Of a DNA stretch of 6,363 nucleotides, positions 1 through 6,363 are shown piece by piece. The position numbers were made by a program, and so were the translations under genes. The notes below the pieces were generated by a model. It did not search any database and was not told where the DNA came from. It saw only the letters and a program-made list of their open reading frames with translations. Position 1 is the stretch's first letter; every line of letters starts with the position of its first letter. This DNA is from Candidatus Latescibacterota bacterium (lineage in GTDB: Bacteria; JAAXHH01; JABIQT01), in contig JABIQT010000424.1 of NCBI GenBank assembly GCA_018667995.1, forward strand, positions 1 to 6,363, in the 5' to 3' direction.

Positions 1-1104
1 GTTATAATAATCGGCGGCGGAGTGATTGGTTTGAGTATTGCTTACGCGCTGGCGGCTGAATGCAAGAGCATAAAGGTGTTGGAGGCGAGTGAGCCAGGTC
101 GGGGAGCTTCGTGGGCGTCGGCTGGCGTGCTTGCACCGCAGGGAGCTCAACCTCGGGCCGGACCATATCTCGATCTCTCACTGCAAAGCCTTGGCCTTTT
201 TGACGAATTTGCAGCCGGGCTTCTTGAAAGCAGTGGGATGGATATAGAATACAGGAATGAGGGAGGGCTCCATGTTGCATTTGATGACGAGGACGCCCAG
301 GCGCTCTTGGAACGTTACGATCACCAATGTGGCCTGGGCCTACCAGTCCAGAAGTTGGATCGAAATGAAGTACTGGAACTGGAACCGATTCTGGGGCCTG
401 AGCTCCGGTCGGGTCTTCTCTTCGAGGGAATGCATCAGGTGGACAATAGAAAAATGGTGGAGGCGTTACGGGTAGCTGTCGGTTTGCGCGGCACTGAGAT
501 CGTATCCGGAGCGCCGGCTACTGGTTTGATGGTCGGCAAGAATCGGATTGGCGGCGTGGAGACACCGCGGGGAGCATTCCGCGCGGGTATTGTAATCAAC
601 GCAGCCGGAGCCTGGTCGCGGACTATAGGTGGTGACCAGGTGCCTTCTCCGCCCGTTAAGCCGGTAAAGGGACAGATGCTCTCCCTTGATGTAGGCGACA
701 CCACGCCAATAGGGAGAGTGATACATGGAATCAGCCAATACCTTGTACCGCGCCGTGATGGCCGCCTACTCGTGGGCGCCACCGTAGAGAAGGTCGGCTT
801 CGACGGCCGTGTGACAGCTGGAGGAATCTCGGTACTCCTTAAGACGGCACTGCGAATGGCGCCGGGCCTGGAACGTGCGTCGATTACGGAGACGTGGTCA
901 GGTATGCGGCCGATGTCCAAGGATGGGAAGCCGATAATTGGACCCACCAACGTGCAAGGTTATCTGATGGCGACCGGGCATTTCCGAAATGGTATTCTGC
1001 TTGCGCCTGTCACCGCACAGCTCATCCAGCAGTACATAGTGAGTGGCAAAGTACCATCGGAGATGGCTCCTTTTCTTCTGGAGCGATTCAGCGGTCATTC
1101 GTGA
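1..1104 (+). CDS. thiO: FAD-dependent glycine oxidase / D-amino-acid oxidase family protein, ThiO-like (5' end outside window)
   Basis: Flavoenzyme of the DAO fold. ThiO oxidises glycine to iminoacetate with FAD and O2 for thiazole synthesis in thiamine biosynthesis; relatives deaminate other small or D-amino acids in the cytoplasm. The frame is open from base 1 and gives 367 residues. It begins inside the Rossmann FAD-binding strand (VIIIGGGVIG), so only a few N-terminal residues should be missing, against a usual length of about 365-375. The codon at 22 is internal to the dinucleotide-binding motif and is not a start. Other family marks are GRGASWASAGVLAP after the first helix, a central NAAGAWS segment, and the C-terminal WSGMRPMSKDGKPIIGP and GHFRNGILLAP motifs, which are typical of ThiO. 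No thiamine genes (thiS, thiG) are visible nearby, so the in vivo substrate is inferred. The gene is convergent with the epimerase, with 18 bases between the stops. Family assignment is firm; glycine as substrate is likely. Confidence 0.82.
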   Translation, partial: VIIIGGGVIGLSIAYALAAECKSIKVLEASEPGRGASWASAGVLAPQGAQPRAGPYLDLSLQSLGLFDEFAAGLLESSGMDIEYRNEGGLHVAFDDEDAQALLERYDHQCGLGLPVQKLDRNEVLELEPILGPELRSGLLFEGMHQVDNRKMVEALRVAVGLRGTEIVSGAPATGLMVGKNRIGGVETPRGAFRAGIVINAAGAWSRTIGGDQVPSPPVKPVKGQMLSLDVGDTTPIGRVIHGISQYLVPRRDGRLLVGATVEKVGFDGRVTAGGISVLLKTALRMAPGLERASITETWSGMRPMSKDGKPIIGPTNVQGYLMATGHFRNGILLAPVTAQLIQQYIVSGKVPSEMAPFLLERFSGHS

Positions 1105-1122: not shown

Positions 1123-1914
1123 TTACATATTACGGATCTTGGCAATCCTCTCGGCCGTCTCACGGGCCATTGCGGCGTCCCCTCCGACCTCACTGACCAG
1201 TGCACCATCAAATCCTATGTTCCGTAGTTCACGCATGACTGCTGGCCAGTCTACATCTCCATCCATGAGCTGAACCCACGCATGATCCCGGCGCCTGAAA
1301 TCCTTCACATGCACCTTGGTAATCCTGCTGCCCAGGTCGTGAATCCACATTTCTGGATATCCATAGAGTATCATATTAGCCACATCGATGTAAATACCCA
1401 CCGCGGATGATCCCACCTCATCCACAAATCGACAGGCCTCGAGCGGTGACAGGATGAATTTGTTCCACACGTTTTCGACGCCTATAGAGCATCCTCTGCT
1501 CTCGGCCTCAGGGGCCAGTGTCTTCAAGGCATCTCGAAAGTTATTCCAGGTCTTGATATAGGAAACACCCGGTTCGAGAGATCCGGGGTGAAGTAGAAGG
1601 CCATCTACCCCCAGCGATTCAGCGATTTCCAGTCCCCGGCTCAAGATGTTTACTAGTTTGTCCCGCTCGGCAGCATCGGGCGACAGTAGTGATCCACCGT
1701 CCTGTCTCAATGGCCGAATTGATACGATCTCCAGGCCCCGGCTATCGCATGCGGATTTCACCTGGGCAAGCTCGTCTGCGGAGGCATCAATCGACGGCTC
1801 CCCCTCATCGGAAAAGACAAGCTCAATAGCCTCGTATCCGGTATCCCTTGCGAAATCGAGGTCAGCATACAAATTTCGTCGAGGCAGACAGATCTGTGTG
1901 ATTCCCGGTTTCAT
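1123..1914 (-). CDS. Sugar phosphate isomerase/epimerase family TIM-barrel protein (AP endonuclease 2 / xylose isomerase-like fold)
   Basis: Predicted cytoplasmic 263-residue TIM barrel that interconverts keto-sugars or their phosphates through a divalent metal. The fold shows as repeated strand-helix units, for example GYEAIELVF, GVDGLLLHPGS, IGVENVW, GIYIDVAN, KVHVKDF and ALVSEVGG. The expected metal ligands are present in order: E147 (GVENVW), D177 (YIDVAN), H202 (KVHVKD) and E242 (SEVGG). H109 in LLHPGS is a further likely active-site residue. Their spacing resembles that of L-ribulose-5-phosphate 3-epimerases (UlaE/SgbU type) and ketose 3-epimerases, so these are the best guesses; the exact substrate cannot be read from sequence. 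The length is normal (260-290). The start is supported by an AAGGAG Shine-Dalgarno at 1924-1929, nine bases upstream of the ATG. The gene is divergent from the selenoprotein gene and appears monocistronic. Confidence 0.85.
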   Translation of the reverse strand: MKPGITQICLPRRNLYADLDFARDTGYEAIELVFSDEGEPSIDASADELAQVKSACDSRGLEIVSIRPLRQDGGSLLSPDAAERDKLVNILSRGLEIAESLGVDGLLLHPGSLEPGVSYIKTWNNFRDALKTLAPEAESRGCSIGVENVWNKFILSPLEACRFVDEVGSSAVGIYIDVANMILYGYPEMWIHDLGSRITKVHVKDFRRRDHAWVQLMDGDVDWPAVMRELRNIGFDGALVSEVGGDAAMARETAERIAKIRNM

Positions 1915-2022: not shown

Positions 2023-2052
2023 TAGCGCGTACCAAATTCTGAGGGGTGTTGC

Positions 2053-2634
2053 ATGAAATCAAGAATGCCAATTCTGTGGGCGGTTCTGGTGTCGTTGACC
2101 GTCATTTTCTGTGCGACAGACTCCCGTGCACAACGGAAGTCCGTGCCGTTGGTTGGGCAACCAGCACCGGAGTTCTCACTTACAGATATCAACGGTAAGA
2201 CGGTTAGTCTTAGTGATTTTAAGGGCAAGAAGAATGTCCTGGCCGTTGTCCAACGCGGCTGGGTGGGATACTGGTGACCACACTGCCTAACGCAACTGGG
2301 GCAGTTGCAAAGTGAATATGAAAGCATAGCCAGTCACAACACCGAAGTCGTGTACGTCAACCCTATGGATATCGATCGGACCCAAGAATACCTTTCAAAA
2401 TCCAAGGTAAAGTCCGAAGAAATCAAGTTTTCGGTGGTCATCGATCCGGACCGAAAGTTTGTGGCTCAGTACTCCCTGGAAAAACCGGGGCAGAAATTCC
2501 CCGAGGCATATCCCAGTTCGGTGTTAATCGACAAGAACGGCATCCTGCGTTTCAAATATATCGGTATGGTGCCATCGGATCGGCCACCGTTGGCGCACCT
2601 GCTTGAAATCATACAACTGATCAACAGCCAATAG
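2053..2634 (+). CDS. Exported peroxiredoxin/thioredoxin-fold (AhpC/TSA, redoxin) selenoprotein with in-frame UGA read as Sec75
   Basis: Predicted thiol/selenol oxidoreductase of the AhpC-TSA/redoxin superfamily, 193 residues including selenocysteine. Residues 1-26 form a Sec signal peptide: basic start MKSR, hydrophobic core ILWAVLVSLTVIF, and likely cleavage after SRA (26/27). The mature enzyme should therefore act outside the cytoplasm. The domain follows with VGQPAPEFSLTDINGKTVSLSDF (two stretches, about 34-56), then the active-site region RGWVGYW, TGA at codon 75, PHC (C78), giving a U-P-H-C redox motif where relatives have C-P-x-C. After the TGA the same frame stays open for 118 codons. 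It carries an acidic IDPDRKF segment, the cis-proline strand YPSSVLIDKNGILRFKYIG and a C-terminal helix, so both sides belong to one domain. GAGGGG at 2041-2046 is the Shine-Dalgarno. A SECIS-like hairpin follows the TGA. The likely activity is hydroperoxide reduction or disulfide chemistry. The alternative is a nonsense mutation or read error; the position, UxxC motif and hairpin argue against that. Confidence 0.85.
2281..2314 (+). promoter_or_regulatory. Bacterial SECIS-like hairpin directing selenocysteine insertion at UGA 2275-2277
   Basis: The upper stem is a perfect 7-bp inverted repeat, GCAACTG (2292-2298) with CAGTTGC (2302-2308), closed by a GGG triloop at 2299-2301. A lower stem pairs CACT (2281-2284) with AGTG (2311-2314), separated by an internal loop of 7 and 2 bases. 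The loop begins 21 bases after the UGA. Known bacterial SECIS elements lie in the coding sequence just after the UGA, with the apical loop about 16-37 bases away and a G among the first loop bases, which SelB recognises. All of these conditions are met. It also encodes residues of the protein, as expected for bacteria. Structure was judged by eye, not by folding software. Confidence 0.8.
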
Positions 2635-2663: not shown

Positions 2664-3722
2664 CTATTCTGCTTCGACGATGTCCTTTACCATGGATTCC
2701 ACATCCACGGACTGGTTCGACCCAGAAGCTTCGATGGCGCCGAATACCATGGCCACGCTCTTGATGTTCTCATCAAGTACCGTGTCCGGGGTTCGGCCGC
2801 CGTCCAACCACGTCAAGAATTCGTCTATCAACCATTGATGCCCGTCAAATTCTGGTTGGACACTCGGCACATCTTCGATGATCATTCCCGTACCGGCCGT
2901 GTGCCTGTATATGCGCGTAACGCCGTCGCGCCCTATGGCAACCGCTCCGTCCTCGCATTCAGCCCGATAGTACTCCTGATGCCAGCTGTTCTGACTGGCC
3001 GCGCCCATGCCCGACCCCTCGTAGGAACCCTTTACTCCGTTCGACATATCCATGACGTAGAGGTTATTGCATTCGCCTTTAAAACTACTCCAGGGGGAAT
3101 TCCATTCCCATCCTGCAATAGTCTTACAGTCACCTGCCGAGAGATTCCGGATCATGTCAAGGTGGTGAACGGCACCCTCTACCAGAAGGCTGTGGGGGAT
3201 CTCATGTCGAAACGCGCCCCACGCTCCATACTCCCGGTAGTCAGCGCCGAAGCGCCCCACAATATAGTTGGTGCGGCCAAGGATGCCGTCACGTAAGACT
3301 TTCCGCATAGTGAGCATTCTCGAACTGTACCGGTAATTCTGTATGACGAGCATCTTCAGATTTGCCTCTTTGACCGCCCGGTAGATGTCAACGCTGGCTT
3401 CCCATGTGTCGGCGATAGGTTTCTCGCTTAGAATATCAAGCTTATGTTCTACCGCAAGCATTACGGCATCTTTATGGTAGGCGGGAGGAATAACGATCGT
3501 GCAGTAGTCGGCTTCGATCTCCTCGAAGGCTTTAGACATGTCCGTGAATTGGCGATCTGAGGGCAGGCCCAAGTAATCACCGGCTTGCCGAAGCACATCA
3601 GCATCGATGTCCACCAATCCTACGATTTCGTGTCGTTCGTTGAATCGGGGATAGAATCTTCGAATCCATCCGCCGGCCATCCCCCCAGCTCCGATCATCA
3701 GACATCGCTTTTTCTTAGACAT
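2664..3722 (-). CDS. Gfo/Idh/MocA family NAD(P)-dependent oxidoreductase
   Basis: Predicted cytoplasmic dehydrogenase of sugars, inositols or related polyols, 352 residues, a usual length for this family. The N-terminal Rossmann domain shows the motif GAGGMAGGW (11-19), an acidic end of the second strand (LVDID, 36-40) that favours NAD over NADP, and the family hallmark SEKP at 99-102, whose lysine contacts cofactor and substrate. The C-terminal alpha/beta domain (from about 125) has GAVHHLDMIRNL, with H186/H187 and D189 in the place of the usual catalytic His/Asp. The substrate cannot be told from sequence. The ATG at 3722 is preferred over the GTG at 3728 because the GAGGAG ribosome-binding site overlaps that GTG. 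The gene is convergent with the selenoprotein gene, with 29 bases between the stops and no obvious hairpin terminator. A 436-base gap lies upstream, so it is probably its own transcription unit. Confidence 0.9.
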   Translation of the reverse strand: MSKKKRCLMIGAGGMAGGWIRRFYPRFNERHEIVGLVDIDADVLRQAGDYLGLPSDRQFTDMSKAFEEIEADYCTIVIPPAYHKDAVMLAVEHKLDILSEKPIADTWEASVDIYRAVKEANLKMLVIQNYRYSSRMLTMRKVLRDGILGRTNYIVGRFGADYREYGAWGAFRHEIPHSLLVEGAVHHLDMIRNLSAGDCKTIAGWEWNSPWSSFKGECNNLYVMDMSNGVKGSYEGSGMGAASQNSWHQEYYRAECEDGAVAIGRDGVTRIYRHTAGTGMIIEDVPSVQPEFDGHQWLIDEFLTWLDGGRTPDTVLDENIKSVAMVFGAIEASGSNQSVDVESMVKDIVEAE

Positions 3723-3727
3723 GGTCA

Positions 3728-3733
3728 CTCCTC
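3728..3733 (-). promoter_or_regulatory. Ribosome-binding site that sets the Gfo/Idh start at 3722
   Basis: On the minus strand GAGGAG is followed by TGACC and then ATG, a five-base spacing. The alternative GTG at 3728-3726 uses the last G of this site as its first base, so it cannot be served by it. The ATG is therefore the start. Confidence 0.75.
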
Positions 3734-4158: not shown

Positions 4159-5628
4159 TTATCCCCAGAGAGCCAGGTATCGACCGTAAGCATCGTTCCA
4201 GCGCTCAGTATCGCTGGGCTCGAGGGTTCCGAGCTCGAATGAATTGGCTACTACGGTCCGGAGCTGTGCAAGATCTGCGATCTCTCCGTGCGCCATGGCT
4301 TGAACGAGGATATTTCCGATTGCCGTGGCCTCAACTGGGCCTGTCCGTACGGGAATCCCTGTCGCATTCGAAGTAAATTGACAGAGAAGTTTGTTTCTGG
4401 CGCCGCCACCTACAATGTGAAGCATCTCAAGCGGACGACCACGCAGTTCGTGTAACTGATCGATAACCAAGCGGTGTTTTAGTGCCAGGCTCTCAAAAAT
4501 ACAGCGCGCCATTGCCCCAATACCGGACGGTAGCGATTGGCCCGATGTGGCACAGGATTGAGCGATAGCTTCCGGCATGTTCTCTGGCGCTGTGAAGGCT
4601 GGATCATCGGGATTAATGAATGCCTTGAACGGCATTGATTGATCTGCCTGCCTCGTGATCTCACCAAAATCCAGTTCCTCACCCTCCCGTGCCCAGATTC
4701 GTTGGCACTCCTGAATCAACCATAGCCCTGTGATGTTCTTAAGTACTCGATAGGTCCCGCCGACGCCCCCCTCGTTGGTGAAGTTCAGTGCCATGGCTTT
4801 GGGGGAGATGATGGGGTCTGAGGTCTCGATGCCCATAAGCGACCATGTGCCGGAGCTAAGGTAAGCCCAGTCCTTTCCATGGGCAGGTACAGCAGCCACG
4901 GCTGATGCCGTATCATGGGATGCCGGGGCTACTACCGATACCTGACCCAAACCGGTGTCGTGTGCGATGTGTGGCAGAAGAGTACCCAGCACAGTACCCG
5001 GCTGAATCACGTCTGGCATGATTTGTGTGGGTATATTGAATCGTTCCAGTAGGGGCCAGGCCCAATCGGATGTTACGGGATTGAAGCACTGTGTGGTTGT
5101 CACGTCTGTAAATTCTGCGGCGGCTACACCTGTTAGAAACAGATTCAGTACATCCGGTATCATCAACAGCTTCTCAGCTGACTCCAGCAGAGGCGAGCCA
5201 GCGCGCGCCAGTGCGATCAAATGGTACAGCGTATTGATGGGCATGAACTGGATACCGGTCTGGTCGAAGATCTCCTGACGGCCGGCCAGTTCGAAGGCGG
5301 ATTCCATGATGCCGATGGTATGGGGATCACGATACGCATACGGCATGCCCAGGAGCGTCATATTGCGCCCCAAAAGCGCGAAGTCAACTCCCCATGTGTC
5401 CACTCCGATACTATGGATCGCACGACCGGACCGCGCGCAGAGAGTAAGGCCTTCCTGCATCTGTTCAAAGAGCCCAAGTAGGTCCCAGTGCAGGTGGTCG
5501 AGGACGCGAATGATTCGATTTGGAAACCGGTGGCACTCTTCGAGGGCTAGCGTGGCTCCGTCAAACGTACCGATGACTGCGCGACCGCTTGACGCGCCGA
5601 GGTCAAAAGCTAGGTAATGTTGAGGCAT
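4159..5628 (-). CDS. rhaB: Rhamnulokinase (FGGY carbohydrate kinase family)
   Basis: Cytoplasmic kinase that converts L-rhamnulose and ATP to L-rhamnulose 1-phosphate, the second step of L-rhamnose breakdown after RhaA and before the aldolase RhaD. At 489 residues it equals the length of E. coli RhaB. Domain I opens with the phosphate-binding motif DLGASSGRAVIG (9-20) and has GVDTWGVDFALLG (75-87). The catalytic Asp is D239 in ASHDTASAVAAVP. The ATP-binding domain shows LSSGTWSLMGIE (257-268) and the conserved GGGARNKLLCQFTSNATGIPV (in two pieces, 407-427), followed by GPVEATAIGN. These fit rhamnulokinase better than xylulo- or glycerol kinases. The ATG at 5628 is preceded by AGGG eight bases upstream, a modest ribosome-binding site. 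It sits alone: no rhaA, rhaD or rhaM, and no regulator is in the window. It has its own promoter in the 92-base gap after the MATE gene. Confidence 0.93.
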   Translation of the reverse strand: MPQHYLAFDLGASSGRAVIGTFDGATLALEECHRFPNRIIRVLDHLHWDLLGLFEQMQEGLTLCARSGRAIHSIGVDTWGVDFALLGRNMTLLGMPYAYRDPHTIGIMESAFELAGRQEIFDQTGIQFMPINTLYHLIALARAGSPLLESAEKLLMIPDVLNLFLTGVAAAEFTDVTTTQCFNPVTSDWAWPLLERFNIPTQIMPDVIQPGTVLGTLLPHIAHDTGLGQVSVVAPASHDTASAVAAVPAHGKDWAYLSSGTWSLMGIETSDPIISPKAMALNFTNEGGVGGTYRVLKNITGLWLIQECQRIWAREGEELDFGEITRQADQSMPFKAFINPDDPAFTAPENMPEAIAQSCATSGQSLPSGIGAMARCIFESLALKHRLVIDQLHELRGRPLEMLHIVGGGARNKLLCQFTSNATGIPVRTGPVEATAIGNILVQAMAHGEIADLAQLRTVVANSFELGTLEPSDTERWNDAYGRYLALWG

Positions 5629-5720: not shown

Positions 5721-6363
5721 TCAGATGGTCATTGTCTTCCAGACACCTTTGCGAAAGCGGTAATAGCAGGCCAATCCGAGGCCACAGATATAGACTGTAG
5801 CAGCCATCCAGGCCCCAAAGAAGTCCATCTTCAACGTGATAGCGAGGTAATATGATAATGGCAGAAATATGACCCACGCGCCGACAAGGGCAGCCATCAT
5901 GGTCCAACGGGTGTCGCCGGCCCCGCGTAGCGATCCGATCAATACTACTGCGAGGGCATCAAAGGCCTGAAAAATAGCCGCAAACATAAGGCCCTGGCGG
6001 CCGTATTTGATCACGTCCGGTTCATCGTTAAAGATTGAAACGAGTTCGACCGGAAAAGCGATGAAGGTCAGGCCGATAAGGAACATATAAATGATGGCCA
6101 GCTTGAGCGCACTGTATGTGCTTCGCTCTGCCATATCCAGGTTCTTTGCTCCGATATACTGACCCACCAGAACCGTCGATGCCATGCCAATGCTGAGTCC
6201 GACCATGTAGGAGATGGACATCATTTGGATGGCAATCTGGTTGGCTGCCAGCTGACCATCGCCAAGACGTCCGATCAAGGCACTGAAGATGACGAAACTA
6301 CCAATGTCCAGAAAACGCTGGACGCCTATGGGCGCCCCTACCCGGATTACACGCAGGATTTCA
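5721..6363 (-). CDS. MATE family multidrug/Na+ (or H+) antiporter, C-terminal half (5' end outside window)
   Basis: Inner-membrane exporter of the multidrug and toxic compound extrusion family, which pumps cationic drugs or metabolites in exchange for Na+ or H+. The frame is open from the window edge and gives 213 residues, about half of the usual 440-470, corresponding to the second six-helix lobe. The visible N-terminal part (RVGAPIGVQRFLDIGSFVIF, then LIGRLGDGQLAANQIAIQ) is the typical start of that lobe, and the TTG at 6278 inside it is not a start. Further marks are a GQYIGA turn after a helix and the conserved loop SLRGAGDTRW. Hydrophobic segments include MVGLSIGMASTVLVG, LAIIYMFLIGLTFIAF, MFAAIFQAFDALAVVLIG, ALVGAWVIFLPLSYYL and AATVYICGLGLACYY. 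The protein ends with a short basic tail (RFRKGVWK). It is upstream of rhaB on the same strand. The substrate is unknown. Confidence 0.88.
   Translation of the reverse strand, partial: EILRVIRVGAPIGVQRFLDIGSFVIFSALIGRLGDGQLAANQIAIQMMSISYMVGLSIGMASTVLVGQYIGAKNLDMAERSTYSALKLAIIYMFLIGLTFIAFPVELVSIFNDEPDVIKYGRQGLMFAAIFQAFDALAVVLIGSLRGAGDTRWTMMAALVGAWVIFLPLSYYLAITLKMDFFGAWMAATVYICGLGLACYYRFRKGVWKTMTI

Follow-up and report, generated by a model that had tools for sequence, protein, structure and literature searches.

A predicted exported Prx-like selenoprotein with a conserved in-frame UGA in Candidatus Latescibacterota

A gene interrupted by one in-frame TGA, found in a 6,363-nucleotide stretch of DNA from a Candidatus Latescibacterota bacterium (hereafter the window), very probably encodes an exported selenoprotein in which selenocysteine (Sec) is placed at residue 75 through SelB and an mRNA hairpin, and which would serve a redox role on disulfides or peroxides. 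Judged from sequence comparison, the mid-gene UGA is almost certainly read as Sec, and almost all sequenced members of the phylum Latescibacterota carry the recoded gene. An earlier note on this DNA had inferred Sec decoding from the reading frame and its active-site motif. That inference now draws support from three sides: the conservation of the TGA, a covarying hairpin downstream of it, and the presence of selA and a Sec-type selD in the same genome.

Results

The interrupted frame and its surroundings

The window carries six protein genes (Table 1). The frame at 2053-2634 on the forward strand is open except for a single in-frame TGA at 2275-2277 and closes with TAG, which confirms on the sequence that one TGA splits an otherwise continuous frame. 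With this codon translated as Sec, the product has 193 residues, running from MKSRMP through RGWVGYW-U75-PHC78 to LINSQ. Gene calling under translation table 11 yields two ORFs from the frame, 74 and 109 aa long, just the outcome foreseen when the enzyme was described as easily missed by automatic annotation. GAGGAGG or a similar sequence precedes the ATG in most orthologs.

The neighboring gene for a xylose-isomerase-like TIM barrel has 69-71% identical copies in 8 of 10 related loci, each upstream in the same divergent orientation, and gene position thereby adds to the case for orthology. Conservation of the TIM-barrel gene, which keeps this divergent arrangement in relatives, exceeds that of the adjoining selenoprotein, and a functional link between the two is possible. 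An Rfam scan of the window returned only a sub-threshold match to the fluoride riboswitch (E 0.44), which was taken as chance.

Table 1. Features of the window, with the SelA loci of its own genome and of relatives
Feature	Position	Strand	Basis
ThiO/DAO-like oxidoreductase, start cut off	1-1104	+	
Xylose-isomerase-like TIM barrel, divergent conserved neighbor	1123-1914	-	PF01261; copies in related loci
Likely ribosome-binding site AGGGG, 6 nt 5' of ATG	2042-2046	+	Direct sequence reading
Predicted selenoprotein gene; AhpC/TSA-fold, thiol:disulfide oxidoreductase-like, exported, 193 residues, Sec75, TAG stop	2053-2634	+	Frame, Pfam, orthologs, model
Probable signal peptide, residues 1-26, cleavage S-R-A/Q	2053-2130	+	Hydrophobic N-terminus, A-Q, orthologs; by eye
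UGA codon 75, predicted to be read as selenocysteine	2275-2277	+	TGA at the same codon in 14/15 other phylum genomes
Cys78 codon TGC, predicted resolving Cys of U-P-H-C	2284-2286	+	Invariant in ortholog alignment
Bacterial SECIS-like hairpin GCAACTG-GGG-CAGTTGC	2292-2308	+	Folding, covariation, criteria of PMC13188914
Pro154 codon, thioredoxin cis-Pro position (Arg in true peroxiredoxins)	2512-2514	+	Alignments
Gfo/Idh/MocA oxidoreductase	2664-3728	-	
FGGY sugar kinase	4159-5628	-	
MatE transporter, cut	5721-6362	-	
SelA of the window's own genome	L082:1512-2705		
SelA of relatives	L186-L189		

Fold, active site and export

Two Pfam families match the protein across the TGA, namely PF00578 (AhpC-TSA; E 5.6e-25, 88.1 bits against a cut-off of 26, residues 34-167) and PF08534 (Redoxin; E 9.7e-22). 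An AlphaFold2 model (mean pLDDT 80, pTM 0.76) retrieved peroxiredoxins, BCP and ResA in Foldseek at probability 1.00. Profile alignment with ResA sets U75 on the first Cys of CxxC and C78 on the second, in keeping with the earlier placement of RGWVGYW-TGA-PHC at the CxxC-type active site of AhpC/TSA redoxins. The sequence past the TGA completes the fold, as had also been claimed: the Pfam matches span the codon, Pro154 occupies the cis-Pro position, in a column common to thioredoxin-type relatives, and IDKNG follows downstream. In the alignment with peroxiredoxin 2ywn, the TxxC motif has its Thr opposite U75 and its Cys opposite C78, and an Arg stands opposite Pro154. The description “peroxiredoxin-like” therefore holds for the fold but not for the active site, which consists of UxxC plus cis-Pro rather than TxxC and Arg; by these alignments a thiol:disulfide oxidoreductase-like site is set in a peroxiredoxin-like frame.

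These same alignments bear on the possibility that Sec is indeed inserted while the enzyme is a true peroxidase (a peroxiredoxin) instead of a thiol:disulfide oxidoreductase. Peroxiredoxins and BCP are the top fold matches and the Pfam family is AhpC-TSA, both as a peroxidase would have it, but Sec75 stands at the Thr column of TxxC and Pro154 at the column of the catalytic Arg, as in ResA and thioredoxin, and we consider a true peroxidase unlikely, if still a reading to be taken seriously. A Sec enzyme may reduce peroxides even with an oxidoreductase-type site.

The N-termini of orthologs finish much as that of the window protein does (ADA/Q, ARA/Q), and confidence in the model is low at residues 18-27. 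Such a cleavable-looking N-terminus, conserved among orthologs, suggests an extracytoplasmic site of action for the mature protein.

TGA at codon 75 across nearly the whole phylum

A six-frame search of 59 genomes, together with an examination of all 16 genomes of the phylum, showed that all but one of the 15 other phylum genomes (14) encode an ortholog at 45-54% identity, each with one internal TGA and each aligning through it over about 180 residues, a similarity well above what chance would give. Every one of these TGAs corresponds to codon 75 of the window protein, within the motif RGW[IV]GYW-U-P-[LH]-C, and P76, Cys78 and Pro154 are invariant among the orthologs. Genome G013 gave no ortholog at the search cut-off; another TGA redoxin (L033) is present there. 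No Cys ortholog was found, although the genome scan used two patterns, one of them the Cys form GWIGYWC, and no relative was detected in the viral contigs searched. Homologs were expected to show Cys or Sec at position 75, and they do: the column is TGA in all orthologs and TGA, TGC or TGT in remoter redoxins, while PxCT-type peroxiredoxins have Thr at or beside it.

This distribution makes it very improbable that the gene is a pseudogene or the product of a sequencing error, the TGA being either a genuine early stop or a sense codon read wrongly. A young pseudogene would likewise show one stop in an otherwise open frame, but the same codon is TGA in 14 other assembled genomes and the protein is strongly conserved downstream. 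Equally hard to credit is a pair of functional pieces, comprising a short exported peptide that ends at the UGA and a second protein initiated internally. Annotation would indeed give two such ORFs, the second from TTG 2305, yet the split runs through the active site of the thioredoxin fold and P-H-C falls in neither ORF, though P76 and C78 are invariant, and it offers no reason for TGA over TAA or TAG in every ortholog.

A covarying hairpin downstream of the UGA

Published rules for the bacterial SECIS (bSECIS) specify a loop of 3-9 nt with a G in its first two positions, a stem of 4-16 bp, a distance of 16-37 nt from the UGA and a folding energy no higher than -7.5 kcal/mol (PMC13188914). 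The hairpin at 2292-2308, on which the earlier note is silent, satisfies all of them, with a 7-bp stem, a 3-nt GGG loop beginning 21 nt after the UGA and a hairpin energy near -9 kcal/mol (-10.2 when the 42 nt that follow the UGA are folded). It recurs at the same place in nearly all of 30 TGA homologs, some of them from a second phylum, and across these 30 the stem cells are paired in 95.2% of cases, against 16-50% in slid versions. The covariation score is 0.215 against 0.086 in shuffles, with 0 of 500 shuffles as high; 14 cells are changed on both sides of the stem against 3.3 in shuffles, a control that kinship among the sequences inflates. Several of the double changes are silent, among them GCAACUC/GAGUUGC to GCAGCUC/GAGCUGC and GCAACUG/CAGUUGC to GCAGUUG/CAACUGC, with codon changes such as CAA/TTG to CAG/CTG and CTG/CAG to TTG/CAA. 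Because they are silent in both codons, protein selection leaves them unexplained.

The covariation was obtained from a local 42-nt alignment that includes distant homologs. A 150-nt alignment of orthologs gave a different fold in RNAalifold with almost no covariation, the orthologs being too alike, and that fold was rejected. Folded as a single sequence, the window hairpin is no stabler than shuffles (z -0.2), and the protein sequence QLGQL itself favors the stem, with synonymous-coding p of about 0.03 for the window and 0.01 for L006. In five Cys-containing frames whose downstream motif is similar, one of them probably a chance frame, 2-6 of the 7 stem pairs are kept; they form a weak control, as one frame reaches 6. 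Plasmid matches offered only remote Cys controls.

Selenocysteine machinery in the genome and its relatives

The window's own genome is a draft of 6.06 Mb in 1165 contigs, 85% complete. It encodes selA (486 bits, cut-off 268) and selD (367 bits, cut-off 125), and its SelD, on the minus strand of contig C1058, has a TGA within TCG-U-AAKISP at the known UxxK catalytic Sec position. This SelD is thus a predicted selenoprotein too (L083, minus strand, upstream of and including 1478-2440). In the same 85% complete assembly, neither selB above cut-off nor tRNA-Sec was found: four matches to the tRNA-Sec model are really tRNA-Ser and tRNA-Leu, and the selB matches lie below cut-off, that on C1023 resembling, by eye, the GTPase subunit of sulfate adenylyltransferase.

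Relatives fill in the picture. Across the order, selB exceeds the cut-off in 14 of 16 genomes; strong tRNA-Sec matches occur in 13 relatives, and the two genes stand side by side in most. For instance, ARAGORN reports tRNA-SeC with anticodon TCA directly after selB in G002. G011 has no tRNA-Sec match, and its selB match stops 18 bases short of a contig edge, which shows how fragmentation can hide selC. Incompleteness best explains why selB and selC are missing from the window's own assembly. The search for selA, selB, selC and selD that the earlier note had called for was accordingly answered in part, with selA and a Sec-type selD present and selB and tRNA-Sec wanting in a fragmented draft; a genome without selB and selC, which the note had counted against Sec decoding, is formally what this assembly presents, although most relatives have both.

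The window genome's SelA shares its short form with the SelA of three relatives that possess selB and selC. About the first 60-70 model positions are absent from SelA in G000 (the window's own genome), G002, G007 and G013, and the SelA of G001 is full-length. The same draft also encodes a second TGA redoxin with the motif WUGFC. In this protein (L084:989-2023, contig C600), SASW-U-GFCKSQL is followed by more than 100 further C-terminal residues, including a CDATGCLLP stretch that is, by eye, reminiscent of the DsbD type.

Elsewhere TGA behaves as an ordinary stop. It terminates the window's ThiO-like and MatE genes, and also this same gene in four relatives (L007, L008, L009 and L018), and the other window genes have no in-frame TGA; UGA would thus be recoded locally by context, not reassigned. 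Reassignment to a normal amino acid such as Trp or Gly could account for an in-frame TGA kept within the phylum, but it is incompatible with the terminators just described, gains nothing from the other window genes, which are free of in-frame TGA, and ignores both the alignment of the TGA with a redox Cys and the Sec machinery of the phylum, so that we give it practically no credence.

Discussion

A model for recoding and catalysis

We propose that SelB and Sec-tRNA would bind the hairpin just 3' of the UGA, and that Sec would be inserted at residue 75 in place of termination, where it would be the N-terminal residue of the CxxC-type site within an AhpC/TSA (thioredoxin) fold. By analogy with the chemistry of the family, the enzyme, once across the cytoplasmic membrane, would most likely reduce disulfides or peroxides: Sec75 would attack, Cys78 would resolve the intermediate as a selenenylsulfide, and a thioredoxin-like partner would return the site to its reduced state.

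Selenocysteine in Latescibacterota and beyond

Our literature search returned no report joining Latescibacterota with selenocysteine, and the pairing of Latescibacteria with selenoprotein gave two papers, both incidental; selA and selB have been described as co-occurring in sponge-symbiont bins of several phyla (PMC5649159). The gene supplies a clear example of predicted selenocysteine use across the phylum Candidatus Latescibacterota. More tentatively, and with somewhat less than even confidence, we suggest that these proteins constitute a phylum-specific exported selenoprotein subfamily, RGW[IV]GYW-U-P-x-C, with no Cys ortholog found and no literature report of Sec in the phylum, in which Sec may be obligatory for function.

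The phylum of G054 (84 genomes) holds more than 100 matches of the redoxin superfamily with one in-frame TGA. These proteins, L166-L185 among them, often occur several to a genome, some of them adjacent or in frames of 370-480 aa; tRNA-Sec was detected in 5 of 5 genomes tested, and in the tree some of the phylum's members fall with L106 of Candidatus Poribacteria. Prx-like selenoproteins seem to have expanded greatly there. Taken together with the TGA group of the other phylum, the Latescibacterota gene suggests that many Prx-like selenoproteins are missed by family models and standard gene calling, and the alignment and hairpin model could be used to annotate such genes correctly.

Comparison with known selenoproteins and redoxins

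The nearest published kind is the “Prx-like thiol:disulfide oxidoreductase,” assigned to PF00578 with UxxC or UxxU in Table 1 of a 2026 review, where the UxxC family is classed as predicted with high confidence, not experimentally verified (PMC13188914); a GOS survey counted 225 “Prx-like 1” UxxC sequences (PMC2398784). By definition the window protein fits this kind, of which WP_010940744.1 is the published example, sharing its Pfam family and a UxxC motif with Sec first. To that plan the Latescibacterota clade adds a likely signal peptide and, unlike the other Sec homologs examined, it has RGW[IV]GYW before the Sec and a 3-residue insertion. A single Latescibacterota clade (support 90/84), separate from the second-phylum homologs, emerges in the tree; L095, a UxxC homolog from Smithellaceae, is a neighbor whose placement is weak.

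Among Cys enzymes, oxidoreductases of the ResA/TlpA type resemble the window protein in being exported, in having the first Cys of CxxC where U75 lies, and in the cis-Pro column held by Pro154. The window protein differs from ResA in carrying Sec for Cys, and it scores 60.9 bits on the NCBIfam ResA model NF002854, against a cut-off of 170. With peroxiredoxin, BCP and AhpC structures (3hjp, 3drn, 5ovq) it has the fold in common, but it is without TxxC and the catalytic Arg and bears Sec at the Thr position. It also resembles the SelL-related redox proteins (NF040769) as a redoxin related to a selenoprotein family, scoring 57.9 bits, below the 120-bit cut-off; the active motif of SelL is UxxU, whereas that of the window protein is UxxC. 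No NCBIfam model reaches its cut-off for the window protein, and automatic annotation is therefore likely to miss the recoding. As far as sequence can tell, the enzyme appears to be a further example of an established kind of selenoprotein, with a function that we infer from its relatives.
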